A stretch of 64,000 bases of DNA from Acidobacteriota bacterium (GTDB taxonomy: Bacteria; Acidobacteriota; Blastocatellia; UBA7656): NCBI GenBank assembly GCA_038040445.1, contig JBBPIG010000005.1, positions 197,690 through 261,689 on the forward strand, written 5' to 3'. A program made the position numbers and the translations under genes. Below the pieces are notes generated by a model that had not been told where the DNA came from, searched no databases, and saw only the letters and a program-made list of their open reading frames with translations. Shown piece by piece: positions 33,401 through 64,000 of this stretch (position 1 is its first letter; each line of letters begins with the position of its first letter).

Positions 33401-33959
33401 GCTCAACAGTGCTAGGAAGGTTGAAGACAATCTTCTTGGGGGAGCGCTCAAAGCGCGGATAACATGGTTCTCAACTTCTCGATTGCAAAACAGGCAAGAG
33501 TACCAGCCGGGAAAAACGAGTTATGTGAATCCATGCGAAATATCAATCATTCTCCAAACTCTGAAACGAATTCAGTTCTTTGCCAAGATAGCAAAACGAC
33601 ATTACAGTGTCGGGGTGTTGACCGCGTATGCGGGTCAGAAGCGAGAGCTCGAACGCCAGTGTCGATCACAAAGCTGGGATATGCTCAACATTGAATGCAA
33701 TACGGTCGATGCTTTTCAGGGACGCGAGAAGGATGTCGTTATTTATTCGGTCACACGCTCAAATGACCTAGGAGACATCGGGTTTCTTCGCGAGATGAAG
33801 CGCATCAATGTCGCTCTCTCTAGAGGGCGCGATTACCTAGCGATCGTGGGCGACCACAAGTTCTGTAGGTCTTCATCTGGAGAGAATCCACTTAAGGATG
33901 TTGTGAAGTATATGGAGAGCCATCTTGGAGACTGTAGGATTGAAGAGGTTCGGGAATGA
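30495..33959 (+). CDS. mkoA: MkoA: Ser/Thr kinase fused to an SF1 helicase (Mokosh type I)
   Basis: This 1154-residue protein has an N-terminal kinase (about 10-260): glycine loop KKGGMAEVY, Lys40 in VALK, HRD at 134-136, and DFG at 154-156, all intact. A coiled region follows, then a superfamily 1 RNA/DNA helicase of the AAA_11/AAA_12 type (COG1112-like). The helicase has a P-loop, GPPGTGKT (590-597), a Walker B DEAS (874-877), VGDQRQLSPF, QHRMVPPIGN, and a C-terminal AFQGREKDV plus NVALSRGR. Kinase-helicase plus PLD nuclease is the type I Mokosh antiphage arrangement. It overlaps mkoB by 4 nt (ATGA). Between the helicase motifs is a helical insert of about 200 residues. Confidence 0.85.
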   Translation: METRIINNQYALTPLVKKGGMAEVYRAADLYHSGRTVALKLFTAANVDEDMVAESFKRETLALKELKHESIVELLDVGTDRETGRHFIVLEWIEGDLSDWLTTSSLTGWDSFYETIGQDVLRALAFAHNRNVIHRDLKTKNILIDQNGRVKLIDFGIAQLKSAIQSAVTLVDFISPPFTPREIDDGEYSYTRDLYGFGVVVLDCLTTVELRDYPDVYAALGNLNVPPDVFQLIERCVSVNPADRPVHAGILLQELDNIRARCFLERIPKSYCHLRLAATALNTLRTRFRLRLEADLQKAILDDLGAECGIEPYRSPKDEGVPTIPLHDGDYTLFGTSYLYRAMLNGPQEDRLVIVNAWPFDPSYLEKKRETAWPLPYQFKFGNPRTLDEGQRTIRELQLEVGKHQAELQSKRVEDAEERLLQIWKKTLDAKAFIERNREPSLQYTNVSFEGRRVIFHLVDLPDRDLLGQARRVKLTDGNYLRGEVEEIRVDKLHLFAEQRNHDLVPKSGKLEFDTSAANQAIDRQKRALESVRSDEAVRSDLRYLIVQPAQVTVPEISDDLEFFNASLDSAKRTAVQKALGTRDFLVVEGPPGTGKTTFITEVILQYLSRNPDARILLASQTHVALDNALEKISDHIGESKQFSDIKLVRIGRNGDPRIAPAVHHLLVDNQMDSWCEEAITQGREFLSDWATDSKLSRHNVEVAKVLKKLSITNSDIENKEAKLADLRKELSRLDEGLPDTPFDKLLGEGEVEFTLSLRDDIYAVDTDLKAVRKEARQLAEQLRKLEPDVADDLLNSSPAELGSWISDYLPDSPGTRMYLQLLSIQLEWEQRFGRGKDFQTALFASSHVVAGTCIGAVGVKGIAEIDYDLCIVDEASKATPTEALVPLSRSRKWILVGDQRQLSPFQEDALQDQNVLESFQLTRDDLKRTLFDHLVESLPPECRSALTTQHRMVPPIGNLISECFYDGALNSARKVEDNLLGGALKARITWFSTSRLQNRQEYQPGKTSYVNPCEISIILQTLKRIQFFAKIAKRHYSVGVLTAYAGQKRELERQCRSQSWDMLNIECNTVDAFQGREKDVVIYSVTRSNDLGDIGFLREMKRINVALSRGRDYLAIVGDHKFCRSSSGENPLKDVVKYMESHLGDCRIEEVRE

Positions 33960-41692: not shown

Positions 41693-43606
41693 GTGTCGCT
41701 ACTGCACTACATTGAACAATATGACGCCGTGCACGGCATACCGCGTCCGATGGACGCACCTCATCTGACGGCTTATCACGCGGCTCTTCGTTGCCTTACC
41801 ACCGGCGCCGGAATGCTGGGCCTCGTTCTTTGCGGGTTGCTTTCGGCTTACCTTCTCTGGATCACCGCTAATAACCTTAGCGTAGATTTCGAGGTTCGGT
41901 TGATCTTCGTCATCGGCATGATCATGGCTGTCTTTGTGGGATCAATGGACGCCTTGCAACTTGTGCTTCCCTACTACCGCTTCAAGCAGCGCGTTACTCA
42001 CGGCTCAGCTATGTGGGCCGACACTCCCTGGCTCAAGGCTGAAGGATTTGCGCAGGACTTCACCGATACTCCCAAACCGGGCGACCTGCGCATTGGCGTA
42101 CTCCATACCGGTCATCAGCTCGTCCTCCCCGCGTCTCATACCATGCGACACCTCGCCATGTTTGGTCCTCCGGGCTCCGGCAAGTCCAAGACCTTCCTGA
42201 TGACTTTCCTACGCAACTGGGCTAATTCCGGCTCCACCATTGTCCTTGACCCTAAGGGCGAACTCTTTGAGGAGACCGCCTCTCTGTATCAGCATGTCTA
42301 TCGGCTCGACCTAATGGATCCCAGCCGGTCTGACTGCTGGAACTTCCTGCCCCACTGTAAAGGCAATGCCGAACTCGCCCATCAGATTGCTTCTATCATC
42401 ATCGGCTTCAGCCCGAGCAACAAAGGCACCGATACTGAAGACTTCTGGCGCAACTCTGAAATCGCCGCGCTTGCGGCAATCCTTCTACACTTGCCTCAGA
42501 TCATCAACGATCCCACTCCGGCGATGATCAATGAATTCATCTCTCTGCGCTCTATCGATCCGGCTGAAGGCGAGTCGGAGTCGCCTCTGACCAAAGAGAT
42601 GATCAACTCTCCTGATCCTCAGGTCGAGGTCTACTGGGGAGCCTTCACCAAAGCCAAGCGGGATCTTCAAGGCTCCATACTGACTGGCGTCATTTCCAAG
42701 TGCCAGGCCTTCACTACTCCTAATGTGAAGGTGGTCACTACTAGTCTTACTGATCCTGGGTCCAGTCCTCGAGAGGCCATTGATCTCAAGATGCTGCGCA
42801 ACCCGAGCACTGCTATTTACGTGGTCATTCCAGAAGGCGACGCCGATCGCTACGCCTCGTTTCTAACGACTTTCTTTGGCCTCGCTATGACCGTCCTCAG
42901 AACTCTACCTGTTACGTCCGACACCGTACCCGCCCTGTTCGTCTTCGACGAGGCCGGTAACATCCCGATTCACGGTCTTAAAGAGATGCTTGGTGTCGGG
43001 CGCGGACGGAAAGTCGGTCTCGTTCTCGCCTATCAGAACCTCGGTCAGGTCTACGCTCATTACGGGCGTGATGGCGGCGACGCAGTTTTGGGCTCCATCA
43101 ACACAATGATCTTCTTGCCTGGCTTGGACCAACGCACTACTGAATTCGCGGCTACGAGAGTAGGTAGGACCACCGTTCTTCAGCAAACGACCATCGACGC
43201 AGTCGGCACGCAGAACGACGCTGAGCGGCTTGCGGAAACGAGACGCGACCTTGTTGATGCGGCCGAGCTGCGCCAGCTCGTTCGACACAAGCAGGCTGTC
43301 GCCATCATCGATACTGCTCCTCCTATCAAATTCTCTTATCCTCCGTTCATTCAAGCCTCGCCTGCGACGCTATCTATTCCCGCCTACAAGGGCACACCCC
43401 ATATCATCAATCTCAAGGGGGCTCAGAAGGTAAACAGACCAGACGGGGATAAGCGTACTGGGTCGACAAATCCCACAACGGTCGCGGCCCCTTCGGATAA
43501 TTGCCAGCAGGCCATCGAGCACAAAAAATCATCCCCGGCTCATTCACAGCAAGCGGCGCCACGACCGGCACGACAGAACCCACAAGAACCCGAAATCAAA
43601 ATCTGA
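41693..43606 (+). CDS. VirD4/TraG-family coupling protein
   Basis: Starts at GTG with AAAGGAGGG about 10 nt upstream. The 637-residue product has two N-terminal membrane helices (about 35-60 and 68-90), a P-loop (GPPGSGKS, 158-165) and a Walker B VFDEAGNIP (Asp419, Glu420). It also has HLAMFGPPG and LAYQNLGQVYAHYG motifs of the TraG/VirD4 family. It brings the relaxosome or effector proteins to the T4SS channel. Its presence shows that the system can transfer substrates. The C-terminal 70 residues are low-complexity. Confidence 0.9.
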   Translation: MSLLHYIEQYDAVHGIPRPMDAPHLTAYHAALRCLTTGAGMLGLVLCGLLSAYLLWITANNLSVDFEVRLIFVIGMIMAVFVGSMDALQLVLPYYRFKQRVTHGSAMWADTPWLKAEGFAQDFTDTPKPGDLRIGVLHTGHQLVLPASHTMRHLAMFGPPGSGKSKTFLMTFLRNWANSGSTIVLDPKGELFEETASLYQHVYRLDLMDPSRSDCWNFLPHCKGNAELAHQIASIIIGFSPSNKGTDTEDFWRNSEIAALAAILLHLPQIINDPTPAMINEFISLRSIDPAEGESESPLTKEMINSPDPQVEVYWGAFTKAKRDLQGSILTGVISKCQAFTTPNVKVVTTSLTDPGSSPREAIDLKMLRNPSTAIYVVIPEGDADRYASFLTTFFGLAMTVLRTLPVTSDTVPALFVFDEAGNIPIHGLKEMLGVGRGRKVGLVLAYQNLGQVYAHYGRDGGDAVLGSINTMIFLPGLDQRTTEFAATRVGRTTVLQQTTIDAVGTQNDAERLAETRRDLVDAAELRQLVRHKQAVAIIDTAPPIKFSYPPFIQASPATLSIPAYKGTPHIINLKGAQKVNRPDGDKRTGSTNPTTVAAPSDNCQQAIEHKKSSPAHSQQAAPRPARQNPQEPEIKI

Positions 43607-47394: not shown

Positions 47395-47592
47395 GTGCTG
47401 ATCGCCAAGACAAGCGAGCGTTTGAGCAACTTGGATTATCAGAAGGCGTTCGGCGTCTCAAAGCCAATTGCATCGACGGATTTGGAAGATATGCTAAGGA
47501 AGGGCATATTGGAGAAGATAGGAACAACAGGCAAGGCAACCTATTACGTGCTCAACCGCAAAGGGCTCACAAAGGGCTCAAAGGGCTCATGA
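47395..47592 (+). pseudogene. orphan winged-helix fragment, possible remnant of a Fic- or ATP-dependent regulator
   Basis: The 65-codon frame reads LSNLDYQKAFGVSKPIAST, then a recognition-helix-like part, then KATYYVLNRKGL. That is the kind of C-terminal winged helix seen at the end of Fic and AAA regulators. The frame has a TAG immediately upstream of its GTG start and no plausible upstream domain, so it looks like a truncated gene end. The last residues run into a tandem repeat array. It might alternatively be a genuine small DNA-binding protein. Confidence 0.35.
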
Positions 47593-47680
47593 AAAGGTCA
47601 GAATGCAAAGGGCTCACGAAGGGCTCAAAGGGTTCACCCCAGGGACGCGGGCAATGGCTCATAAATGGTTCAATTGGCTC
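47560..47680 (+). repeat. tandem array of AAAGGGCTCA-type 9-11-bp units
   Basis: AAAGGGCTCA occurs exactly at 47560, 47571, 47580 and 47607. Close variants GAAGGGCTCA and AAAGGGTTCA follow at 47618 and 47627, then more degraded forms (ATGGCTCA, ATGGTTCA, TTGGCTCA) to about 47680. The first units code for the tail of the orphan winged-helix frame (KGLTKGSKGS). The array continues past its stop, so it is DNA-level repetition. Confidence 0.65.
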
Positions 47681-47710
47681 ATCGGAATACGTGATTCCAC
47701 CTGCCCCGTC

Positions 47711-47799
47711 CCCATCATTATTTAATACCCGCCGTTCATAGCACAGCTCAGACACGGCGGTAGCCCACCCGCCCACCCATCATTATTAATACCCGCCGT
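47711..47799. repeat. imperfect 24-25-bp direct repeat pair with nested palindromes
   Basis: CCCATCATTATTTAATACCCGCCGT at 47711-47735 is repeated, minus one T, at 47776-47799. Within it CCGCCGT (47729-47735) pairs with ACGGCGG (47754-47760). CGCCGTACGGCG (47794-47805) is a perfect 12-bp palindrome overlapping the second copy. The spacing between copies is about 65 bp. It belongs with the large inverted repeat that follows. Confidence 0.65.
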
Positions 47800-47862
47800 A
47801 CGGCGAACATGCATCTGCTCAACCCATCCCGAACTAAACCCTCCCGGCTCATTCTCCTCTCC

Positions 47863-47981
47863 GACAAATTCAGGTAAAGGGGCAAGACGAGTCGGCCCAA
47901 CGGCAGCGCTTGTTTGTCGCTTCGCGTCTTTCCCTATTTCACTGCCTACCTGCGGGCCGACCCCTATGACCTGAATTTGTC
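47863..47981. other. interrupted 21-bp inverted repeat upstream of ardC-like gene (candidate oriT or ssDNA promoter)
   Basis: GACAAATTCAGGT (47863-47875) pairs exactly with ACCTGAATTTGTC (47969-47981). Further in, GTCGGCCC (47891-47898) pairs with GGGCCGAC (47954-47961). The two stems are separated by unequal internal loops (15 and 7 nt), and a 55-nt terminal loop lies inside. The structure ends 72 nt before the ArdC-like gene. Long imperfect hairpins upstream of antirestriction and ssb genes are known as single-strand promoters (Frpo/ssi type) in conjugative leading regions; oriT is an alternative. Confidence 0.6.
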
Positions 47982-48053
47982 TCCGCTACACATGGCCTCT
48001 ATCGGGTTTGTTACTAGTTTTTTTAATTCCACAAAACCCTTTGGAGGTACGAC

Positions 48054-48872
48054 ATGAACCTTGACGCAACCAATCAGCAGAAATGGAGCGACTTGTTAAC
48101 GCAAGCCGTCACTCAACCCGGTTTGATCCTTAAAGCTTACTCGGCTTTTCACGGCTACAGCCTAGGCAATCAACTTGGCGCACTCGTGCAATGCCAGCTT
48201 CAGGGTATCGAGCCAGGCCCGATTGATACATATAGAGGATGGCTCGACAAAGGCCGCCACGTACGCAAAGGCGAAAAGGCAATCTGGCTTTGCATGCCTC
48301 TTACTCGCAAGAAGACCAACGGCGACACAGGCGAAGACGAGCTCTATATAACCGCTTTCGTTTGGAAGCCGCGATGGTTTGTGTTGGCGCAGACCGAAGG
48401 CGAGCCGGTACCAATGCCCGAGATTCCAGAATGGAACAAAGAACGCGCCCTTGCTGCGCTTGGCATCGAGCAGATTCCGTTCACACACACAAACGGCAAT
48501 GTTCAGGGATACGCGAAGAAATCCCAGGTTGCTATATCGCCGCTTGCCGAACTACCTCACAAGACCCTGTTTCACGAAGTCGCCCACGTTGTTTTGCTGC
48601 ACACGGCAGAATCCGATATCAACGACTCCGAACAGACCCCAAGGAGCTTACGAGAAGTTGAGGCCGAAGCAGTAGCACTTTTGGTTTGTGAATCGCTTGG
48701 CTTGGCATGCTCTGAATACTGCCGAGGCTACATTCAAAGCTGGCTTGAGGGCGACGTGATCCCGGAGAAGTCGGCGCAGAAAATCTTCGGAGCAGCCGAC
48801 CGCATTCTGAAGGCTGGCATCAATCATCAGGCTGAGCGAACGCAATCAAACGCCAATCAGCCGTTGGCATGA
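48054..48872 (+). CDS. ardC: ArdC-like antirestriction protein
   Basis: This 272-residue protein starts after TTTGGAGGT. The N-terminal part has the ArdC ssDNA-binding-domain pattern (YSLGNQLGALVQCQLQG, then GWLDKGRHVRKGEKAIW and FVWKPRWFVLAQTEG). The C-terminal part has a zincin-type HEVAHVVLLHT (HExxH) and a later Glu region, EVEAEAVALLVCESLG. ArdC proteins protect incoming single-stranded plasmid DNA from restriction. It lies downstream of a large palindrome and upstream of ssb, the leading-region arrangement. Divergence from canonical ArdC is evident in the N-terminal motif (YSLGNQ in place of NPWRGYN). Confidence 0.78.
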   Translation: MNLDATNQQKWSDLLTQAVTQPGLILKAYSAFHGYSLGNQLGALVQCQLQGIEPGPIDTYRGWLDKGRHVRKGEKAIWLCMPLTRKKTNGDTGEDELYITAFVWKPRWFVLAQTEGEPVPMPEIPEWNKERALAALGIEQIPFTHTNGNVQGYAKKSQVAISPLAELPHKTLFHEVAHVVLLHTAESDINDSEQTPRSLREVEAEAVALLVCESLGLACSEYCRGYIQSWLEGDVIPEKSAQKIFGAADRILKAGINHQAERTQSNANQPLA

Positions 48873-48956: not shown

Positions 48957-49166
48957 ATGTCAACGTATCACGACCATTCCACCCATTCAACCGCTTTTGA
49001 GTTTGTTAGATCACGCTTCGGGTGCGCGCCCGAAGAACTCTCCTGCGCTGAGGCTGCAGCCTGCATAAACGCACTCGCTGAACTCCTCGACGCTCAACCG
49101 CCAGGCTTTTCACGCCTGCGCTTCACTTCAACAAACAAAGGAGAACAACACCATGTCAAGCTTTAA
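48957..49166 (+). CDS. small hypothetical protein overlapping ssb
   Basis: This 69-residue protein begins MSTYHDHSTHST at an ATG preceded by a purine-rich stretch (GGGGAGAAAAGAG). A frame 27 codons longer lacks support. Its last 14 nt overlap the ssb start. It has a cysteine-containing helical middle (GCAPEELSCAEAAACINALAELL), with no domain I recognise. Operon position between ArdC and SSB suggests a small leading-region protein. Confidence 0.5.
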   Translation: MSTYHDHSTHSTAFEFVRSRFGCAPEELSCAEAAACINALAELLDAQPPGFSRLRFTSTNKGEQHHVKL

Positions 49167-49551
49167 CAAAATCACAGTCGTTGGCTATCTGGGCAGAGCC
49201 CCGGAACTGCGTTACACGCCGGATGGCACACCCGTTTCCAACTTCTCAGTTGCCACGACCGAGAGGCGCAAGGACAAGTCCGGTGAGCTTCAGGAAACCA
49301 CCACATGGTTTCAAGTCGCCCTCTTCGGACGCCGTGCCGAGGTTGCGAATGAGTACCTGTCAAAGGGCAGCCATGTTTGGCTCGAAGGTCCGCTGACCCT
49401 GAATCAGTGGACCGACCGGGAAGGCGCAGCCCGCGTCAACCTGGAAGTCAGAGCCTCTGACATCAAATTCCTGTCTCCCTCAGCCGAGAAAGCCACAGCC
49501 GCAGCCGCCGCAGCGGAAGTGACCAGCGAGGAGCAGGACGTTTCGTTCTAG
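49153..49551 (+). CDS. ssb: single-stranded DNA-binding protein
   Basis: A 132-residue SSB: OB-fold from residue 1 to about 105 with NKITVVGYLGRAPELRYTPDG, TTTWFQVALFG and YLSKGSHVWLEGPLTLN. A short Ala-rich tail follows and ends in EEQDVSF, an acidic C-terminal tip related to DDDIPF. It is started by AAAGGAG 9 nt upstream. The short linker and the altered tip point to a plasmid- or element-encoded SSB, which would coat incoming ssDNA during conjugation or replication. Confidence 0.9.
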   Translation: MSSFNKITVVGYLGRAPELRYTPDGTPVSNFSVATTERRKDKSGELQETTTWFQVALFGRRAEVANEYLSKGSHVWLEGPLTLNQWTDREGAARVNLEVRASDIKFLSPSAEKATAAAAAAEVTSEEQDVSF

Positions 49552-49638: not shown

Positions 49639-49738
49639 AGGCTCACGCCGGTCCGACAACGAGAACTAACTCAGCGACGCGCTGAGCCGTGCGTTGCTGA
49701 GATTGAGCCGACGAGTAGTGCGGCTGGGAGCAAGAATC

Positions 49739-50632
49739 ATGAGTGACATAGTTGCTGAACTAGAGCATCGCTACGCTGGTCGAAGAGGGCTGCCATCTTC
49801 CGAAGTAGCCGAGGCCTCAGTAATGCTCGATCTCTTTCAAGGCCTTGGTGTCCAATGTTTCTCTCTCACGTTCACTGACGACACTGGACGCAAGGTAGCT
49901 TTCAGGCGGAATAGGTCCGTTGAATCACTGCGCAGTGAATTGCCGTGTTTATTATTCACCTCCTGCCAGAAGCGGCTGAACGTGATTGTGCGGCCGATTG
50001 CTGCACGCCCTCTATCGCTCATACAGCTTGATGATCTGAGCGCTTCCCAGCTTGATCGAGTGCGCGCGTTCTCTTTTCTCGTACTGGAGACGAGTCCAGA
50101 GAACTTCCAAGCTTGGGTAGCCGTCACTGACGCCAGTCACCAGACGATCCGCAGAGTTAAGAAAGCAGCAGGAGCCGACCTCAACGCGAGCGGGGCGACT
50201 AGGCTCGCTGGATCATACAACTTCAAATCAAAATACGCGCCCAACTATCCGCGCGTGCGGCTTCACTCCATTGCACCTCTGCACGCTGTCACAGTCGGCG
50301 AGCTTGATCGCGCTGGCTTAGTCGCACCCGAGGAGCACACGCCTCGCGCGCCGCGCCATGCTCCCAGCTATCGGCGCAGACATCGGTTGCTGGTGTGGCC
50401 CAGCTACGCACGCTGTCTGGCTGATGCGCTTGGAGCAAAGAATCATGAGGGCAAAGACCGCAGCGCGGCAGATTTCAACTTCTGCCTCATCTCTATAGAT
50501 CGAGGCTGGTCTGTTGAAGCTACCGCAAACCAACTTATGGCTGAGAGCGAGAAGGCGAAGTCAACCGGATACAACTACGCGCTCTTCACTGCCAAGCGAG
50601 CTGCTTCCGTGGTTAGTAGCAACCGTCGTTGA
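49739..50632 (+). CDS. RepB-type DNA primase-like protein
   Basis: Starts at the ATG at 49739 (GGGAGCAAGAATC upstream); a frame 15 codons longer lacks a ribosome site. The 297 residues contain LETSPENFQAWVAVTD and RLAGSYNFKSKYAPNYPRVRL, patterns of the RepB_primase family found on IncQ-type and related mobile elements. The N-terminal 90 residues form the first half of the archaeo-eukaryotic-primase fold; a catalytic-site-like acidic motif is LTFTDDTG. It would prime replication after transfer. A helicase/initiator partner is not obvious here. Confidence 0.7.
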   Translation: MSDIVAELEHRYAGRRGLPSSEVAEASVMLDLFQGLGVQCFSLTFTDDTGRKVAFRRNRSVESLRSELPCLLFTSCQKRLNVIVRPIAARPLSLIQLDDLSASQLDRVRAFSFLVLETSPENFQAWVAVTDASHQTIRRVKKAAGADLNASGATRLAGSYNFKSKYAPNYPRVRLHSIAPLHAVTVGELDRAGLVAPEEHTPRAPRHAPSYRRRHRLLVWPSYARCLADALGAKNHEGKDRSAADFNFCLISIDRGWSVEATANQLMAESEKAKSTGYNYALFTAKRAASVVSSNRR

Positions 50633-50900: not shown

Positions 50901-51010
50901 GGTGCTAAGCGTGACCAACGCTGAACGGGAAAGTGTGTTTTACTTTGCGTAGCGAGTCGGCGTTACGATATATACTAATCCTCCTACAATGGTACTCGGG
51001 GGCTCGGCAC

Positions 51011-51991
51011 TTGGCTAGCAGGGAACAGATCAAAGCACTACTCAAGTCGCACATTGATGGCGACGATACACAATTCTTTGCAGTCGCTATGCAGGTCGCG
51101 GCGCACGAGGCGCAATTAGGGCACGGCAAAATAGCACAAGAGCTCCGTGAGATGATTGACGCGGCAAAGCTGAAACGAAAAGGTCACAGTGCGGGCCGAC
51201 CGGTTCCGATCGCTCAGCCACGCGGAGAACTTTCGAGCCTACTTTCAGTCTTCTATCCTAAATCGAGATCGGCCGATCTCATCGTTGATGCGCCAGTTCA
51301 CGCCCGGCTCAGTAGGTTAATAAAAGAGCACCGACACATCTCAAAACTACGTTCCCACGGACTAACGCCACGAAGGAAGCTTTTACTTGTGGGCCCACCC
51401 GGCACGGGGAAAACACTTTCAGCGAGTGTTATCGCGGGCGAGCTTGGACTGCCGCTTTTCGTAGTCCGACTGGATAGTCTGATCACGAAGTTCATGGGTG
51501 AGACCGCAGCGAAGCTTAGATTAGTTTTCGATTCGATCGCACAGGTTCGTGGGGTGTATTTGTTTGACGAATTTGATTCAATCGGGGCTCAGCGAGGAAT
51601 GGGTAACGAAGTTGGAGAGATAAGAAGAGTGCTCAATAGCTTCCTTCAGTTCATCGAGCACGATGAATCTGACAGTTTGATACTAGCAGCTACAAACCAC
51701 CCGGGCATCTTAGACTATGCGTTGTTCCGCCGCTTTGATGATGTCATCGAATACACACTGCCGGAGAAAGAGTTCATATTTAAGGCAATCAAATCAAAGG
51801 TCGCGTCGGTTAAGAAATCGAGAATGGACTGGGAGGCGCTGGCCAACGTAGCGAACGGAATGAGCTACGCTGACATAGCGCACGCTTGTGAAGAAGCGAT
51901 CAAGGGAATGATAATAGATGACCGACAAAAGCTGACGGAGCAAGACTTGTTGGACGCGTTGTCGCAGCGAAAGTCCATCCAGCGTAGTTAG
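51011..51991 (+). CDS. ietA: IetA-like AAA+ ATPase of an IetAS defence pair
   Basis: The likely start is a TTG at 51011 (LASREQIKALLKSHIDGDD), because the conserved N-terminus of such ATPases begins there; an upstream ATG at 50933 adds 26 residues of hydrophobic, unrelated sequence. The 326-residue product has a P-loop, GPPGTGKT (128-135), and a Walker B, LFDEFDS, with Asp186 and Glu187. The sensor/arginine region is LAATNHPGILDYALFRRFD. With the S8 protease that starts 21 nt downstream it matches the ietAS antiphage arrangement reported from large-scale defence screens. The ATPase is expected to sense or regulate the protease. Confidence 0.78.
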   Translation: MASREQIKALLKSHIDGDDTQFFAVAMQVAAHEAQLGHGKIAQELREMIDAAKLKRKGHSAGRPVPIAQPRGELSSLLSVFYPKSRSADLIVDAPVHARLSRLIKEHRHISKLRSHGLTPRRKLLLVGPPGTGKTLSASVIAGELGLPLFVVRLDSLITKFMGETAAKLRLVFDSIAQVRGVYLFDEFDSIGAQRGMGNEVGEIRRVLNSFLQFIEHDESDSLILAATNHPGILDYALFRRFDDVIEYTLPEKEFIFKAIKSKVASVKKSRMDWEALANVANGMSYADIAHACEEAIKGMIIDDRQKLTEQDLLDALSQRKSIQRS

Positions 51992-52011
51992 CCGATCCAC
52001 AATCATCCGAA

Positions 52012-54495
52012 ATGGCAGACGGCAATCTCGAGAAACTCCCGCACCTCCTCGTGACTGGCACGGGCCAGGCGGAATCGTATGTTAAACCACCAGGAGGAGG
52101 CGGCGGAGAATTTGCTCTTCCGCATCGGAACAGAAAACAACACGGCAGAGGCCTTCTGGCTCAGCTCAAGCAAGTGCAACAGGCGGCTGAGGCCCTGGCT
52201 GATGAGCAGCGTGCTTTTGGCGTTGACGCGGGCAACGGCATCGTCATTCAGTTCGAAAGCGAACCGGACTACGAACTCGCGATCAAGAGCCTTGAATTCT
52301 TTCCGTCGGGAATAGAACTCCTCGCGGTGAGGCGACTCGATGATAGAGTTATCGCGACTGTCTTTGTTCCAGAAGGAAAGATGTCTCGCTTCATCAACGC
52401 AGTCACCGCATATCTCGAACAGCAAACCCAGTCCGGCAGCCCCAAGAACCAAAAGCTCGTCGAGAGCATTTCCGAGATTCGCAGAGCCGTGCTGGACGCT
52501 TTATGGACAGATGACGGCGCCCCGCCAGCTGAGGATGAAGCAATATTTTGGGAGGTCTGGTTAAGGGTGGGGTCCGAGCGGGAAGCGTTTGTGGAAAGGT
52601 TCAAACAGCACGCTCAAGACTTGGGGCTTGACATTGGCGACGAGCAACTCAACTTTCCTGATAGGACGGTTGTGATCGCCCGAGGAACCAGAGCACAAAT
52701 GAGTCAGTCAGTCGATCTGCTTAACTGCGTTGCTGAACTCCGAAAGGCGAAGCAGACCGCGGCCTTTTTCACATCCATGACAGCGGCTGAACAGTTTGAG
52801 TGGATTGAGGAGGCGTTAGCTCGCATCAGGCAAGCACCTGCAAATAGTCCGGCAGTCTGCATACTCGATACTGGCGTAAACAATGCGCATCCGTTGCTTA
52901 ACGGCTCTCTCGCTGATGCCGACATGCACACCTACGATCCCGATTGGAATGTGGCCGACCATCACGGACACGGAACAGAGATGGCGGGTCTGGCCCTGTA
53001 CGCTGATCTGACAGACCTCCTGGGCTCTCCTGACGCGTCGGAGCTAAGCCATATTCTTGAATCGGTCAAGATTCTTCCTCCTGAAGGCGAGAACCCCCCA
53101 AAGCTGTACGGCAAGATTACCGCTGAAGCTATGGCTCGGGCTGAGATCGAAGCGCCAGATCGTAAACGTGTCTTTTCGATGTCCGTGACGACAACCGACT
53201 TTCGCGACCGGGGACAACCCTCAGCGTGGTCGGCTGCGCTTGACGCTTTGAGTTCCGGTGCCGAGGAACAAGGCGAACATCGCAGGCTGATCTTTGTTTC
53301 CGCAGGCAACACTGACCCGAATGGCCGCCACTTGTATCCAGACTCGAACCAAACCGACGGAATTCACGATCCCGGTCAATCCTGGAATGCGATCACCGTG
53401 GGCGCATCTACTGATAAGACGAACATCGACACTGATACTTATCCCGACTGGACGCCGGTTGCTCCTGAGGGCGATCTGAGTCCCTCTAGTTCCACTTCTC
53501 TGGTTTTTGGCCGCCCCTGGCCTATCAAGCCAGATGTCGTTCTGGAAGGTGGCAACATGGCTATCAATCCTGGAACTGGATTGGCAGACTACGTTGATAG
53601 TTTGCAGTTGCTATCCACTAACTGGCAGTTCGCTACAAGAGCCCCGCTCGTGGTTACTGGAGACACCAGCGCGGCCACTGCGATGGCGGCTCGAATGGGT
53701 GCGATGTTGCAAGCCGCATATCCGCAGTTCTGGCCGGAGACGATACGCGCTCTGCTTGTGCACTTCGCCGAATGGACAAATGCGATGAAGGAGCGATTTG
53801 TCCCATTGAACACACGCAGTGCAACTATCAGGTTGCTTCGCTATTGTGGTTTCGGAGTGCCCAACCTGGAGAGGGCAATGTGGAGCGCGAGAAACTCGCT
53901 AACTCTCATCGCCCAGGAGTCGATTCAGCCGTTTGATAAGGCCGGCCCGAAGGTAAGCACCCACGAGATGAGCCTGCATAGTATCCCGTGGCCAGTTGAC
54001 GTGCTCGAAGGACTTGGTGAAGTGCCCGTCGAGATGCGAGTCACGCTTTCGTATTTCATTGAGCCAAACCCCGCTCGGCGTGGATGGATCAGGAAACACA
54101 GGTATGCGTCGCACGGGCTTCGCTTTGATGTGAAGACGCCTCTCGAAAGCCTCGACGAGTTCAGACAACGAATCAACAAGGCCGCACGGGACGAGGAATT
54201 CGATAGAGCATCATCCAGCGACTCGGCCCGGTGGCTCCTCGGTCCCGACCTTCGGTCGCTCGGTTCCTTGCACTCCGACCGTTGGACAGGTACAGCGGCC
54301 GAGCTGGCTCAGCGTGGAATCATTGGTATTTATCCCGTAAGTGGCTGGTGGCGCGAGCGTCATCAACTTGGGAGGTGGAATAAACGCGCGCGTTATGCGC
54401 TCGTTGTTACCATTGAAACGCCAGAGGTTGACGTTGATGTGTACACCCCGGTCGTGAACATGATTGCGGCTCAAATCCCAACCGAAATTCAGTAG
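52012..54495 (+). CDS. ietS: IetS-like subtilisin (S8) protease of an IetAS defence pair
   Basis: This 827-residue protein has an intact catalytic triad: Asp286 in ILDTGVN, His320 in HGHGTEMAGLAL and Ser553 in GDTSAATAMA. The N-terminal 275 residues form a helical/beta domain without a signal peptide, so the enzyme is cytoplasmic, unlike most subtilases. The C-terminal part (from about 620) is an unassigned domain. Downstream of an AAA+ ATPase gene it matches the two-gene IetAS plan. Protease activation on phage infection is the presumed role; the target is unknown. Confidence 0.83.
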   Translation: MADGNLEKLPHLLVTGTGQAESYVKPPGGGGGEFALPHRNRKQHGRGLLAQLKQVQQAAEALADEQRAFGVDAGNGIVIQFESEPDYELAIKSLEFFPSGIELLAVRRLDDRVIATVFVPEGKMSRFINAVTAYLEQQTQSGSPKNQKLVESISEIRRAVLDALWTDDGAPPAEDEAIFWEVWLRVGSEREAFVERFKQHAQDLGLDIGDEQLNFPDRTVVIARGTRAQMSQSVDLLNCVAELRKAKQTAAFFTSMTAAEQFEWIEEALARIRQAPANSPAVCILDTGVNNAHPLLNGSLADADMHTYDPDWNVADHHGHGTEMAGLALYADLTDLLGSPDASELSHILESVKILPPEGENPPKLYGKITAEAMARAEIEAPDRKRVFSMSVTTTDFRDRGQPSAWSAALDALSSGAEEQGEHRRLIFVSAGNTDPNGRHLYPDSNQTDGIHDPGQSWNAITVGASTDKTNIDTDTYPDWTPVAPEGDLSPSSSTSLVFGRPWPIKPDVVLEGGNMAINPGTGLADYVDSLQLLSTNWQFATRAPLVVTGDTSAATAMAARMGAMLQAAYPQFWPETIRALLVHFAEWTNAMKERFVPLNTRSATIRLLRYCGFGVPNLERAMWSARNSLTLIAQESIQPFDKAGPKVSTHEMSLHSIPWPVDVLEGLGEVPVEMRVTLSYFIEPNPARRGWIRKHRYASHGLRFDVKTPLESLDEFRQRINKAARDEEFDRASSSDSARWLLGPDLRSLGSLHSDRWTGTAAELAQRGIIGIYPVSGWWRERHQLGRWNKRARYALVVTIETPEVDVDVYTPVVNMIAAQIPTEIQ

Positions 54496-57214: not shown

Positions 57215-60200
57215 TCACTCACTCTCGAAGCCGTGACTCGTGAACTTGAGCGTCCGGCTGTTCTCAGTGACCGTTCTTACGACGTTCTCGGGCGCGCCGC
57301 CGGGGATCGCCGCTTCGATCTCAAGAGTCACCGCGACGTTGGCTCCGACCAAGCCAGCCAGATGAGCAATAACCTCGTCGGCGATACGGCTCGCGTCGCG
57401 GCCCACGCGGGTGGGTTCGAGGGTAACCGTCCCGTGAAAACGCCTTGGTCTGGGCGCGGGTTCGGGCGTCGTGGTGCCCCCCTTTTCGGTTGCCGAATCG
57501 CCGCCAGTTGGCCCGCTTGCCTTGCCAGGCCCAGCGTCTCCACCCGTCACAACCGCAGCGCCCGGAGCGGGTTGAATCTCGGCTTCCTGTTGCTTCTGGG
57601 CAACGTCAAATCGCACCAGCAGCCCCGACACTTGGTCATCCGAAATGCTGACGTGCTGTCCCCCGCGCAATCCGCGATAGCGCCCGGCCTCTTCGTCGTA
57701 GCTGTCAGCGTACGCAAACCCGTCCTGCTGCCAGGTCAGCAGCGAGACGCCGCTACGGATTGATTCGAGCAACACCATTGGCCCTTTGAGTCGAGGCAGG
57801 TATAGATAGCTCGCGAAGTCCTCGATGAGCTGTTTAATTCCGACGTGCTTACCGCGCCAGAGCGGCACGCCATTCAACTCCATCCTCAGCCGCGAGGGCG
57901 CGAAACCAGTGATAAGCATCTCATCGCTCTTCAGCTTCTTGCTGGCACGAACCGCGAGGGCGTCCTGACCAGAGAGCCTGAAGCTCTGCCACTCCACCAC
58001 AGCCTGCGGCGAGGTCTGCACTGGCACTAGCAGCCATTGGTACGCTTCTGGGATGCGCGCCGTAACCGCGCCATCGGCGGATGCCTTCTGCGTCTCAGCT
58101 TGCTTCACTTGTTGCGGGTCGAGATTGAGTTGCTCCTTCTCGGCCAGCACTGACTCCCACGCGAGGTAACGTCGCGCGGCCTCGTCGAGGTCCTGCAGCC
58201 GAGTCTTGTCAACGGCGAGAAAGACGAGCGTGTTGCGGTAGAGGCGAGGCGTGTTGCCACGCGCTTCGAGGATCGCCTTCGCGGCGGCCTCCGCTGCGCT
58301 CGCTGGCTCCTTGGTGTAGGGATGGTCGGTGCCGAGCACGACCAGCCGCGCGTCGAGATCGTCTGGCACGTCTTGGCCAGACTGTGGCATTGGATGGATG
58401 CGGCTGAAGTCACCCGTCCGGCGCAGGTCGGCGCGCAGGCGTTCGTCCAGCTCGTGCACGACCTTGTCGGGATCACGCTTGAGTTGATCGGCACGGTCCT
58501 CCGCCAGCTTGGTCACAGTTGGCTGTGTCGAGTACCAGTAGCGTGGACCGTCCTGGTAGAGATAAGTCGCTGCTGCGGCCAACCGCCGCAGCGCATCCCC
58601 AAAGACGGCCGGTGACTCGCCCGGCATCACGCAACCGAGCTTGACCCGTCGATCTTCAAGTCCTCGATGGGCCGCTTGGGTGAGGGGCGCAGAACCCATG
58701 TAGATTGCACGCGCCACGCGCCGGCACGCCGAGAACTTGCCAAGGTTGGGCACCTCGCTGTCGAGCCTCAGTGGGAGCGAGCTCGGACCGTCCACGTCCT
58801 TCTCGATCACCGGCACCCAGTTGTCTGAGAGGTAGCGCGTCAGCTCAAACTGCACTCGCGGGTCGTCAATCGAGATGTTCGCCGGCAGGATGAGCGGGTT
58901 CTTGTCTCCCTTTTCCCAAAGGCTATGGATAACTGCAGCCATCAATCGCAACACGCCGCGAGTGCGCTGAAACTTCACCAGCGTCGACCAGTCGTTGTAG
59001 AGCCTATCGAAAATTTCCGGGTGGATTGGATACGCAGCCTTTATTCTTTTCTCGTAGTCAGAATCCCGACATTCGGGCGGGAACTCTGCCTGTTGCGTCC
59101 GGTAGAAATCGGCAAATCCGCGCGCCACCACGTCCCGGTCCTTGAACTGGGCAGGCTCGGACATCGGCTCAAACAGTCGCCGCCGCACGATCTCGAAGCC
59201 CTCTTCGGCGCTGGCCGGTCGCCACGAGGACTCGACTCGGCCTACCACATTGCGCAGACGATCAAGCGCCTCACGACCCCGTTGGCCGCCCACCTCCACA
59301 TCATCGGCTTGTGTGTGCGGCGAGCCGCCAGTATCCGAGGCCGGAAGACTGATCACCAACAGACAGTTCTTTGCGAGCTTCGCCGACTCGGTCAGTACCT
59401 GCGCGAAGGTGAACTGCGTCTCGAAGCCGCCCGCTGGCAAGTCGCTCTGGTCGTGGAGCTGCCGCGCGTAAGCAACCCACTCGTCGATCAGAATCATGCA
59501 CGGGCCGTATTCCACGAAGAGTTCGCGTAGCACGTCGCCGGGGCTCGTAGCCTTCTCGTCGTCAGCCTTGATCCGGGCAAACGCCTTCTTGCCGCCGAGC
59601 TGGTAGGCGAGTTCTCCCCAAAGCGTTCGCACGACCGTGCCGTCAGGTTTCTTAGATGGGCTGCCAGCCGAGATCTTGTTCCCGACCAGCACCACACGAC
59701 GAACGGTAGGCAGTGACTTAGCTTCCGCTTGCTGCATCACTACGTCGATGCCTGCTAGCTCCGCGGGCGCGATGCCGGAGAACAGGTGATAGAGCGCCAG
59801 CATTGAGTGCGTCTTACCGCCACCGAAGTTGGTCTGGAGCTGCACCACCGGATCGCCGCCCTTCCCGGCGAGCCGCCGCACTGCGCCGACCAGCATCCCC
59901 TTGAGGCTCTCGGTGAGATAGGTGCGTCGGAAGAACTCGACGGGGTTCTTGTACTCGTCCGTCCCCTGGCCGAGATGCACCTGCCACAGATCGGCGGCGA
60001 ACTCGGCCTGCTGATATTGGCCGCTTGCCACATCCTTGTGCGGTGTCACCACCTCGCGCCACGGTTTGAGGCCGCCTACCGCCGCGCTCTCGATGGCCGT
60101 GCCGGCGCTCTTGCGCTTTTCGCCGCGCACCTGCTCGTCAAACCGCAGGCGCAGCAGCTCCGTCTTCATCTTCTCGATCTCATCGGCCTGAGATGCAGAA

Positions 60201-60571
60201 ACCGCCGTCAGCAACCTCCCCGCCGAATCGAGGGAGCGGTAAGCGTCATCACTTGAAAAAGTCTGTTGGTGCGCCCACTTGTTGCGGACTTCTCGGAGCT
60301 CGCTGACCAACGTGCGCTCAGCTTGCCCAAGTGTCTTGTTGAACACGCTGTTCCACTCGTTCCACATCACCGATAGGATTCGCTGCGTATCCCAGTCCAG
60401 TATCTTTTCCTGGCGGCTGGTTCCGAACAGCCTGTCGTCAAGCCGAGACCTGAGCTGCTGCTGCCAGTCATCGCCGAGAGCCGCTGTTAGCTCGCGCTCG
60501 AAGAACGGCATCAGTCCGCTGTTTAGCAATTCAAGCGCCTTGCCGACGCGGTCGTGGTTGGTGATCGCCAT
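57215..60571 (-). CDS. DUF499 ATPase with N-terminal Swt1-type HEPN domain
   Basis: This 1118-residue protein has an N-terminal HEPN-like segment (about 1-120; VSELREVRNKWAHQQTF carries an R-x4-6-H-type motif) and the DUF499 core. The P-loop is NFGGGKTH (G250-T254) and Walker B is MILIDEWVAY (Asp363, Glu364). A Pro/Gly-rich linker (about 1010-1045) leads to a C-terminal beta-domain of about 75 residues. Its start is 3 nt after the methylase stop. DUF499 with DUF1156 and a helicase is the core of helicase-methylase-ATPase type (Hma-like) defence loci. The HEPN motif could make it a ribonuclease. Confidence 0.82.
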   Translation of the reverse strand: MAITNHDRVGKALELLNSGLMPFFERELTAALGDDWQQQLRSRLDDRLFGTSRQEKILDWDTQRILSVMWNEWNSVFNKTLGQAERTLVSELREVRNKWAHQQTFSSDDAYRSLDSAGRLLTAVSASQADEIEKMKTELLRLRFDEQVRGEKRKSAGTAIESAAVGGLKPWREVVTPHKDVASGQYQQAEFAADLWQVHLGQGTDEYKNPVEFFRRTYLTESLKGMLVGAVRRLAGKGGDPVVQLQTNFGGGKTHSMLALYHLFSGIAPAELAGIDVVMQQAEAKSLPTVRRVVLVGNKISAGSPSKKPDGTVVRTLWGELAYQLGGKKAFARIKADDEKATSPGDVLRELFVEYGPCMILIDEWVAYARQLHDQSDLPAGGFETQFTFAQVLTESAKLAKNCLLVISLPASDTGGSPHTQADDVEVGGQRGREALDRLRNVVGRVESSWRPASAEEGFEIVRRRLFEPMSEPAQFKDRDVVARGFADFYRTQQAEFPPECRDSDYEKRIKAAYPIHPEIFDRLYNDWSTLVKFQRTRGVLRLMAAVIHSLWEKGDKNPLILPANISIDDPRVQFELTRYLSDNWVPVIEKDVDGPSSLPLRLDSEVPNLGKFSACRRVARAIYMGSAPLTQAAHRGLEDRRVKLGCVMPGESPAVFGDALRRLAAAATYLYQDGPRYWYSTQPTVTKLAEDRADQLKRDPDKVVHELDERLRADLRRTGDFSRIHPMPQSGQDVPDDLDARLVVLGTDHPYTKEPASAAEAAAKAILEARGNTPRLYRNTLVFLAVDKTRLQDLDEAARRYLAWESVLAEKEQLNLDPQQVKQAETQKASADGAVTARIPEAYQWLLVPVQTSPQAVVEWQSFRLSGQDALAVRASKKLKSDEMLITGFAPSRLRMELNGVPLWRGKHVGIKQLIEDFASYLYLPRLKGPMVLLESIRSGVSLLTWQQDGFAYADSYDEEAGRYRGLRGGQHVSISDDQVSGLLVRFDVAQKQQEAEIQPAPGAAVVTGGDAGPGKASGPTGGDSATEKGGTTTPEPAPRPRRFHGTVTLEPTRVGRDASRIADEVIAHLAGLVGANVAVTLEIEAAIPGGAPENVVRTVTENSRTLKFTSHGFESE

Positions 60572-60574
60572 AGG

Positions 60575-63448
60575 TTATTCCTCATTTCCGTCAAACAGCT
60601 CGGCCTGCGACTCTCTCGGCTTGCTGCCTTCGCGAGCCAGGCGGGTGATCTCGGGCCAGCTTTGCACTAGACCGTTATAGGCCAGCGCTTCCGCCGCTCG
60701 CTTCTTGCGCTCGCACAAGGTGTAGAGCCGGTAGGCCAGCTCTCGGGCGATCTCGGCCTTCCTGCCCAGCTTGCCGACGAGCGTTCCCGCGGCACCCTCG
60801 CCGCCTGCTTCGAGCGAGCGGATTAGGTGGTGGACCATCTCCCACGCCGTGAGGCGCGCGTCCGTCGTCGGGTCCCAGTCGGCAGGCAGCTCGCTTGGTT
60901 TCAGCAGGCGCACCTTGCCGCGACTCGAGGCCAGGATGCCCGCATTCTCCATTCCGGCGACGCTGGTGTTCTTGGCCTTGGAGAGCGTCTCTGCCACGCC
61001 GTACTCGCCCTCGACGAAGCCCGACTGCTCGAACCACGCGAGCGCCCAGCGGCTGTCGGCGTCGAAGTCGCCCTCCTGCTCGGCCAGCGCCTCGTCGAGG
61101 GTCTGATTGATGAGTGCAAGCGCATCGCGCACCTTGAGCCGCTTGCCCTCGGCGTCGAGCACCTGGGCATATCGGGTGTAGACCGCCATGCCTGGTCCGA
61201 TGGCGGCTTGAGCGAGATCCACCGGCGCGATGTTGCTCCGCTGCACGTGGGCAAGCGCCACTGGCAGCTCGACCTTGAGCGCGGAGACGAATTCTCGCCG
61301 CGTGGCAGTGGGCGCGTTCATCGCTCGTCGGCGGCATACGAGGACGATGCTGGAGGCAAGAGTGTTCGTACCGGTGGACCGAGCTCCGCGCTCGGTCCGC
61401 ATTGGCCAAGTGCCGGTGATAGCGAAACCGGCGTCGATCACTGCTTCGAGAAAGGTATCCCAGCCCGTGCTGGCGGTGCCATCTATCTCGTCGCTTTCGG
61501 TCTGTTTGAAAGCGTAGTAGATAGTGACCGGAAAGGCCGAGTGCGCCTGCTCTGCCAAGCGGTGCATCGCGCGTGTCATGCCATCGAGAAAGAAGGCCTC
61601 CGCCTCTTCCTTACTCGCGTGCCGGTACGGCGTGGCGACCAGTTCCTCCGCCTTGGGCACAGCTAATGTTGTGAAAAGCTCAGGGAAGACCGGCTTTAGA
61701 GCTCGGCGTAACCAGACGTAAAAAAAGTCTGACAAGTCTGCGTAACCAATGTTGTCGTAGTACGGCGGATCCGTTGAGACAACTCGATTGCTAACTGAAA
61801 CGCTTTGGGCGTCACATTGGGATGCCTCACCGTCCGAGCCCGGGACAATCACCTCGAGCGCCTTTGCGACTTGGCCGATTCCGCTATCAATACTTCCTGT
61901 CGCCGATCCAAGCGTGTTGGTTTCACAGTAGTCCCAGGTCATAGGGAGTGCCTGTCGTCCGAAGGTGTTTCGAAGAGTTTCCCCTGCGGAAATCCATCTA
62001 CAGATTGTCGAGTTATAGTCAGCCGCCTTGTCTAGTGTGATTCCCAAATACGTTGCGATGGCATCGGCGTAGGCAGCGGCGCCGGTCCCTCCGGAAGCCA
62101 AGGCTATGCCGTCGTCAGGCAATCCCGTAGCCAGCGCGTGCTGCTTCACCAGTTCTCGTGCGTTCTGTGCTAGGTCGGAGAAAGTCGTTAGCGCGACAAG
62201 TTGGCGGGGAGTGAAGTAGTCGCCGAACGTCCTAAAACCATAGCGGCGACCCTGCGCGTTGCTTGCCCAGGTCCCACGGCTTGGTGCGTCGGGCTTCCAA
62301 GTCGGCCGAGCAGCGCGTGCGATGACTTCCATCTCTGTCGTCGGCGACACGTAAATTCGGCCACGCTCGCCTTCCGCGACGATTGCCATCAACCGTTCCC
62401 CGATTCGTCCAGCATTGGCCTCGTCATCGATGTACTCGTACCTGATCGGGACGCTCGAAATCAGACATCGGAAGCTTCCTTGCGAAATTCTAGTGCCGTT
62501 CTTCGCAGTCTCCGCGTCCTTCGGCTTGCCCACCTTCACCGTGAAGCGGTAACCGCCGCCCTCGATCACCGGCTCGACATACGCCTCCTTCCCTGCCTTG
62601 GTGGAGAGCATGAAGGTAGACGCAAGCGGCACATCGACGTTCGCGAAAGCCGGGTTCGGGCTCTTCACCGTGCGCGCCCAGAGCCAGGCGATCACGGTGA
62701 GCTTCTTGCCTACGTACTTTTTCAGGTCCGGCCGCTCCTTCGCCATTGCCGCCGTGATCTCTACCTTGGGGTAGAGGTGGCCGATGCGCTTCTCGGCTTC
62801 GTCGCGCATCCATTTGCCGTAGTAGCGCACGTCCTCGGCGAGACCCTGCGCGCCACGCCAGCTCTTGTCCATCTGCTCTTTTTGTTTCTGCGCATCGGGG
62901 TTCACCGGCGGCTTGCCTGCGAACTTCGGCGGGATCTCGATCATCGCCTTGTTGATGAGCACAGCCACCGGATTGAGGTCGCTCGCATACGCCTCCAGCC
63001 CGAGCCGCTGCGCTTCCAACGGCAACGATCCGCCGCCCGCGAACGGATCGTGGAACGCAGGCAGCTTGTGACGGTCGAATAGTTCCTTGGCGCGTGGATG
63101 GTCAACGTTCTCGGCGCACGTGTAACGCCAGCTCTGCCAGATTTCGTCTCGCGCCTGCTGGAGCACCTTCTCGTTGGTGGTGTTCTCCCACAACACGAGG
63201 TCCTCGATGATTCGGAACAACCGCTGCCGCTCCTTCTCCTGCTTCTTCTCAGTCGGAAACAGATCCGGATGCGCCGACGGGTCGTCCACCATCTGCGCGA
63301 AGATCACAGCCCTTGCCGTCGCCAGCGGCCGCCGCGCCCACCACAGATGCAGCGTGCTCGGATGCCCGTGACGAATCGACTTCTCCCGCGCCGAAGCCTT
63401 ATTGATCGCGTCGAGCGGCAATGCCACTTCGATGAGTTTCTTCTTCAT
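60575..63448 (-). CDS. DUF1156-containing DNA methyltransferase
   Basis: This 957-residue protein opens with the DUF1156 domain ([20 protein letters not shown], then [18 protein letters not shown]). It has a SAM motif, [10 protein letters not shown] (134-143), and a catalytic DPPYYDN (560-566), the order of N6-adenine or N4-cytosine methylases. A DNA-recognition region lies between and after them. It would mark host DNA so that partner ATPases act on unmarked phage DNA. It overlaps the HEPN gene by 4 nt and is followed by DUF499 after 3 nt, indicating a tight operon. Confidence 0.85.
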
Positions 63449-64000
63449 GCCTCTGACAGCGCCGCAACGACCGGCGTCGGATTTAGTTTGGCTTCTATGT
63501 AAGAGACGAATTTCAAAGCCTCAACATATAGCCCATATACTTCGTCCGAAGTCATCTCCAGCGGGTAGCTAGCGAAGTTTTCATGAACCAAAAGATTCCT
63601 TATATCGCCAAGTTGCAAAAATGCGGCAACGGCTCGCGCTAGCTCCGGCTCCTTGAGTTCAAGTTTGGCGGAATCTCTTAGTAAAGTCCCAAACATCGCG
63701 AAGAACGGCATCACACTGCGGTTACCTTCACGCCATTGGAAATAGGTGAAATATTGCCGCTCTATAGCCTTGATCCGAACTAGAGAAGTGAGTGCTTCGT
63801 CGGCGTTTGACACGCGTGCCGCATAATCCGTAATCGTATTCGTGATCCGACTCTCAAAATAACTCGCGATCGAAAGCAGGAGAGTCTTGCTCAGGAACGC
63901 CTCTACGTTCTGTGAAAACGACACCTGGCCCTGTCCCTGCAGAAAGCCGGCGAGCTCTTTTTGCTCTCTAAAGAGAGTGTCAATAAGCGTTATTTCCGAT
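63445..64000 (-). CDS. HEPN-domain protein, 5' end beyond the window
   Basis: The frame is open through the right edge, so the GTG at 63924 is probably not the true start; upstream codons read [18 protein letters not shown], in keeping with the fold. About 184 residues are visible. The C-terminal half has RNLLVHENF, an R-x4-H HEPN motif of the kind found in RiboL-PSP/MAE_28990-like families, in a mostly helical protein. It may be an RNase or a toxin-like partner in the DUF1156/DUF499 locus. It overlaps the methylase start by 4 nt (ATGA). Confidence 0.65.

Follow-up and report, generated by a model that had tools for sequence, protein, structure and literature searches.

A conserved imperfect hairpin upstream of an ardC-like gene of Acidobacteriota, candidate control element of a conjugative leading region

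We analysed a window of 64,000 nucleotides (G000:C5:197690-261689) from the 6.7-Mb draft genome of a member of the class Blastocatellia, in which a hairpin of 119 nt ends 72 nt before an ardC-like antirestriction gene. This hairpin is real and is maintained by selection for pairing. The reading which we find best supported, at about even odds, is a leading-region control element of the Frpo/ssi type, which would act in single-stranded DNA as a promoter and/or a primer site. We favour this reading because the stem covaries, its distance to the gene is fixed, a hairpin recurs before a second gene, the wobble pairs lean toward one strand, and the relaxase has the matching orientation.

The window contains a conjugative element, with a VirB4-like ATPase gene on the minus strand (25.4-28.3 kb), then VirB8- and TrbI-like genes and a coupling protein on the plus strand (36.1-43.6 kb), and then ardC-like, ssb and RepB-primase-like genes, all on the plus strand. 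The features used below are the following, with positions counted from the first nucleotide of the window:

41693..43606, plus strand: coupling protein of the type IV secretion system, end of the transfer operon (PF02534, E 3.6e-37)
47711..47805, no strand: lineage-specific pair of direct repeats and palindrome, absent from relatives and judged not to be part of the element
47863..47981, minus strand (predicted folded strand, the ardC template): conserved hairpin of 119 nt, family R2, from fold, covariation and the R2 model
47863..47875, no strand: left arm of the outer stem, 13 bp, exact complement of 47969-47981
47878..47881, no strand: AGGG, pairing with CCCT at 47962-47965 in the covariation alignment
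47883..47890, no strand: one-sided asymmetric bulge, unpaired yet strongly conserved in the alignment with L003 and L006
47891..47898, no strand: inner stem GTCGGCCC, exact complement of 47954-47961
47902..47908, no strand: apical stem GGCAGCG, pairing with 47940-47946, with an AT-to-TA change in L003 and L006
47969..47981, no strand: right arm of the outer stem, 13 bp, exact complement of 47863-47875
48021..48048, plus strand: A/T-rich TTTTTTTAAT and Shine-Dalgarno sequence TTTGGAGG between hairpin and ATG, conserved in position
48054..48872, plus strand: ardC-like antirestriction gene, 272 aa (PF08401 ArdcN, E 1.4e-6)
49153..49551, plus strand: ssb (PF00436, E 1.2e-31)
49694..50632, plus strand: RepB-type primase-like gene (PF16793, E 3.3e-6)

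The window ArdC is 42-44% identical to plasmid ArdC-like proteins, its relatives in named records include Blastocatellia and Pyrinomonadaceae, and relatives were found in 3 of the 7 genomes of the family and in 16 of the 162 genomes of the class (own genome included). By synteny with the relative L126, only short ORFs lie there between the coupling protein and the hairpin, and a RepB-type primase-like gene likewise stands downstream of ardC and ssb. Defence cargo is found on or beside the element of the window: PADLOC reported matches to mokosh-like MkoA/MkoB, IetA/IetS and HmaB/HmaC (30495-35749, 50933-54495 and 57215-63448), and a HEPN gene occupies 63445-63924. Some nine copies of AAAGGGCTCA or its variants can be seen by eye at 47550-47685; read in frame, they resemble not iterons but a winged-helix protein, now decayed, with a tail rich in KGS.

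A first-pass annotation, made from the window alone, had described positions 47711-47981 as one folded, repeat-rich block and a candidate ssDNA promoter or oriT. All the repeats which it named are present in the sequence at the places given. The two direct repeats (47711-47735, 25 bp, and 47776-47799, 24 bp) differ by one T only, and the window has 4 repeats of at least 14 bp within 100 bp, against a mean of 0 in 20 shuffles. The perfect 12-bp palindrome CGCCGTACGGCG lies at 47794-47805. The inverted repeat has outer arms of 13 exact bp and inner arms of 8 exact bp; exact arms of at least 13 bp within 130 nt occur twice in the 64 kb and never in 20 shuffles, the other occurrence being at 24300-24368, near the start of a 684-aa gene. 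As one block, however, the description held for the hairpin only, which is conserved, while the direct repeats and the palindrome fall outside the conserved unit: reading by eye, we did not find them at L003 and L006, where the hairpin recurs. We therefore rejected the direct repeats as a functional part, and the palindrome as well, since twelve-bp palindromes stand at chance frequency in the window (16 against 16.3 expected).

Folding of each strand separately, a check proposed with that annotation, gave a significant fold on both: positions 47855-47995 as ssDNA have a z of -3.6 on the plus strand and of -3.2 on the minus strand, and none of 200 shuffles was as stable on either. The other proposed check, a comparison of the regions upstream of ardC, found the stem conserved and covarying at two loci of another genome, G004 (L003 and L006, the ardC of L006 being broken), where the same hairpin stands directly upstream of the gene. 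One pair of the outer stem is changed on both sides in L006, and one pair of the inner stem reads CG, TA and TG across the three R2 sequences. Over these three sequences, 96.9% of the 96 pair cells are standard, against 28-49% with the partners slid, and both partners have changed in 3 pairs, where shuffles give 1.4; 40 of 500 shuffles reach the observed value, and with three sequences this test is weak. The R2 covariance model, run on the 162 genomes of the class, found one place in the genome of the window and five in G004; beyond the ardC loci, the latter comprise three copies that lack ardC, one of full length and two compact forms of 77-78 nt (L185 and L186; G004:C106:178901-178977 and C66:35306-35383). 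These compact forms have nearly perfect outer stems made of different letters, and a similar 3' flank GGCCTCCA.CG.GTTGATG.

At ten further ardC loci, from another family of the class, the same place is taken by a hairpin of a second kind, R1. The R1 model found 23 places in 14 of the 162 genomes of the class, and among 396 genomes of the phylum it matched only members of the class, in 4 genomes. The genes downstream of the 23 places are ardC (10), a 107-aa ORF with a strawberry-notch helicase gene (2), NikA/MobC-like genes (3, two of which were scanned with Pfam and one of these was above the cut-off), a TrwC relaxase gene (1), a SWIM-type small protein (2, below the Pfam cut-off) and integrase-like genes (2), with none readable at 3. 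Several copies have no gene close by, the next one being NikA at +352 to +602 or TrwC at +1052. In 21 R1 hairpins, 93.2% of the cells are paired against 40-50% in slid controls, 23 of the 30 pairs are changed on both sides, and all of 500 shuffles fell short of the observed value on each of five measures; fitting the alignment to the model, as was done here, favours structure. The window's own genome has an R1 copy too (C5:273392-273525), 28 kb to the right of ardC and in the same orientation, 60 nt upstream of the 107-aa ORF (ORF107) and of a strawberry-notch-type helicase gene; this copy and the R2 hairpin apparently belong to the same element.

We also noted some peculiarities of the R1 loci. 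L166, L167 and L168 are small elements with an R1 hairpin and a NikA-like gene, and with a tyrosine integrase in L166 and L167; in L167 and L168 the hairpin is at the end of the contig, as if the assembly had been broken by repeats. At L172:14564-14866 the ORF which follows the hairpin starts ArdC-like (PKWSA) and continues integrase-like, as judged by eye. The strawberry-notch-type helicase gene of L174:5489-13637 (G004:C16) is split by three consecutive ORFs (338, 318 and 500 aa) which resemble a recombinase trio.

To ask which strand folds, we used the fact that a G.T pair becomes an A.C mismatch when the opposite strand is read. With the arms of 23 hairpins in a strand-neutral alignment, from which L164 was omitted, the minus strand has 25 G.T against 9 A.C (p 0.005), and in 15 of 21 R1 hairpins, with their helices put in register (L151-L155 and L164 left out), it has 387 Watson-Crick cells, 24 G.T, 7 A.C and 3 others (p 0.0017 by cells), helix P2b supplying 16 of the 24 G.T; both p values are too small, because cells common by descent are not independent. 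The model-fitted alignment A8 of 21 hairpins gave 26 G.T and 15 A.C, 10 of the latter in helix 4, which we judged to be misregistered in many rows, and the two former counts were used instead. The three R2 sequences show 3 G.T and 0 A.C on the minus strand, one of these G.T pairs being in the apical stem of the window. The known Frpo2 of F gives 2 against 2 in the same test, that is no bias, so that the test is without a positive control. We take the wobble lean toward the minus strand, the ardC template, as moderate evidence of which strand folds. Single-sequence energies also favour the minus strand in 24 of 24 hairpins; we gave this little weight as a strand test, since comparison with shuffles (mean excess z -0.83) shows the preference to be mostly base composition.

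This lean bears on the idea that the sequence acts as RNA, as a structured leader or attenuator of the ardC mRNA which would block read-through or control translation. The hairpin is indeed close to the ribosome-binding site, the plus strand folds as RNA too (z -3.4), and a precedent exists in EGeRS1-B of plasmid pLS20, which blocks read-through in one orientation (PMC8708921). On the plus strand, however, the 24 G.T cells become A.C mismatches, and RNAalifold scores R1 worse there than on the minus strand (-18.2 against -25.5 kcal/mol). We regard an RNA element as rather unlikely.

In all 13 ardC loci which bear a hairpin, R1 or R2, the stem ends 44-72 nt before the in-frame ATG of ardC, and the predicted folded strand is the ardC template. 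Seven of the 20 inspected loci of the class have no such hairpin upstream of ardC (L004, L007, L010, L012, L016, L017 and L027). Over 27 homologues the regions upstream of ardC have a median z of -2.27 against -1.15 in ardC coding DNA, which is a weak control. The constancy of the spacing and of the orientation is more than a mere priming site would need, and it weighs against a hairpin that is purely an ssi, priming the complementary strand, perhaps by means of the element's own RepB-type primase, with its placement before ardC incidental. Such a role would suit the RepB-primase-like gene which follows ssb in both f1 elements, and the R1 copies in small NikA-plus-integrase elements without ardC, which would still need priming; yet in those f8 elements that we examined the neighbour of ardC is a helicase gene and not this primase, and the chances of this explanation seem low to us.

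A double-stranded regulatory region, namely a cruciform or an operator to which ArdC itself or a regulator binds, is still less credible: a cruciform predicts no wobble strand lean, and conserved one-sided bulges interrupt the stem, even though unrelated long-range inverted repeats precede other acidobacterial ardC genes (L058, L059, L061 and L066) and the ArdC of R388 binds ssDNA and overhangs (PMC7213743). At L059:3786-3932 such a repeat has 13-bp GCAAATTCCCTTC arms and spans about 147 nt.

A MOBP-type relaxase gene (PF03432, E 2.3e-11), preceded by a NikA/MobC-like gene, lies on the plus strand at C5:192020-194383 (L124), some 51 kb to the left of ardC. Relaxase genes are, as a general rule, the last to enter (Samuel et al. 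2024, PMC11541004). The L124 relaxase is probably part of the element, because G004 has a homologue in the corresponding position (phmmer E 8.6e-69). An origin of transfer generally lies upstream of the relaxase operon; from this arrangement, the orientation of the relaxase and the relaxase-last rule we predict that the T-strand is the minus strand, the ardC template. The minus strand is thus likely to be the transferred one. In the elements of G131, G124 (TrwC) and G143 (MobL-like), the relaxase genes and the R1 hairpins have the same relative orientation, and plasmid F, with its two Frpo copies, is arranged likewise. An oriT, or an oriT hairpin recognised by the relaxase, which was the other suggestion of the first-pass annotation, is very improbable, for although some R1 copies precede NikA-like genes by 350-600 nt or a TrwC relaxase by 1 kb, the NikA and relaxase genes of this genome are about 51 kb from the window hairpin, the genome has two hairpins, and ardC would enter last with the minus strand as T-strand.

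If the hairpin is a single-stranded control element, as we favour, it may work in the following way. The minus strand would be transferred, as the orientation of the relaxase suggests, and on entering the recipient it is predicted to fold at 47863-47981 into a stable imperfect hairpin, the pairing of which is observed to be conserved. By analogy with Frpo/ssi, the fold would offer a short duplex at which the RNA polymerase of the recipient could start and copy the minus strand rightwards through ardC, ssb and the primase-like gene; the complementary strand might also be primed in this way. Conversion to double strand would, by the same analogy, remove the fold and switch the element off. The R1 hairpin 28 kb to the right could have the same role for the 107-aa ORF and the strawberry-notch-type helicase gene.

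Covariation, position, recurrence before a second gene, strand lean and polarity favour the ssDNA-element half of the first-pass idea; the lack of boxes beyond chance in the window stem and of sequence similarity to Frpo counts against it. With an approximate matrix, the -35/-10 boxes expected in the stem did not exceed chance (p 0.81), in a scan which also misses the known Frpo2 of F (p 0.63-0.71). Under the same matrix, R1 stems repeatedly hold TTGTGC-N15/16-GACAAT, the f8 R1 stems score p 0.02-0.41, and the R1 copy of the window's own genome has TTGACA-N15-GAAAGT, a score reached by 0 of 150 shuffles. Because Frpo2 itself scores so poorly, the box scan neither confirms nor excludes a promoter. 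The double-stranded flanks contain no ordinary promoter beyond chance by the approximate matrix (mean p 0.61 and 0.66). No sequence homology to Frpo1 or Frpo2 was found among 16 hairpins (the smallest of 32 p values is 0.045); a resemblance of TGGACA.T to Frpo does not reach significance, and Frpo1 lacks the -10-like box GACAGT of Frpo2.

Neither hairpin has a BLASTN match in 72,556 plasmid records, nor a match in IMG/VR, where only exact patterns were searched. Rfam gave no match above the gathering score at these hairpins, and identity with a known RNA family was discarded; at other ardC genes it reported a HEARO RNA nearby in Tepidimonas (L062:7589-7827) and an adjoining group II intron in Candidatus Nitrotoga (L067:4642-4791). 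A literature search, with subscription journals largely outside its scope, returned no paper on such elements in Acidobacteriota.

We tentatively extend the reading to the two families: R1 and R2, unrelated in sequence, may be promoters which fold on the T-strand and govern establishment regulons in conjugative and mobilisable elements of Acidobacteriota. If this is true, the Frpo principle would have arisen independently outside the plasmids of enterobacteria, in a form that only covariation reveals and that has several copies in each genome, with small integrase-plus-NikA elements among the carriers. Single-stranded promoters are known from a few enterobacterial plasmids and have been searched for by similarity to those. 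Early antirestriction expression from entering ssDNA would then be more general, covariation together with a wobble bias of the template strand would be a way to find elements where nothing resembles Frpo, and the hairpins would mark the establishment genes of the poorly studied elements of Acidobacteriota.

Among known systems, the EGeRS1 sequences of the pLS20 family of Bacillus are comparable: they are structured and repeated, and stand directly upstream of ardC and of four other establishment operons (Val-Calvo et al., PMC8708921). They are 400-600 bp long with several branches, and their authors argue against ssDNA promoters, the T-strand of pLS20 being the non-template strand; here, by contrast, the hairpin has 119 nt and the T-strand is inferred to be the template. 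By size, by this inferred polarity and by the absence of a BLASTN plasmid match, we do not class our hairpins with EGeRS1. Samuel et al. sought Frpo-like candidates upstream of anti-defence genes that the T-strand encodes, using either BLAST comparison with five known Frpo/ssi sequences or a -35/-10 consensus (PMC11541004). Neither route would detect R2, and covariance is a word that their text does not contain. ArdC is needed in the recipient (Gonzalez-Montes et al., PMC7213743), and in F, Frpo1 and Frpo2 are needed for early expression, with the T-strand as template (Couturier et al., PMC9849209). The hairpins described here show no sequence similarity to Frpo and measure about 119-150 nt against about 280 nt, and the window stem is without detectable -35/-10 boxes, in a scan that misses those of F Frpo2 as well. 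Like Frpo and the ssi of ColIb-P9, they precede genes lying on one strand, antirestriction and ssb among them, with the T-strand as the (here predicted) template. The distances agree as well, the F hairpin lying about 60 nt before ssb (stem end near 13584, gene at 13644) and ours 72 nt before ardC, and so does the topology, with two copies of Frpo in F and more than one copy of the hairpin here.
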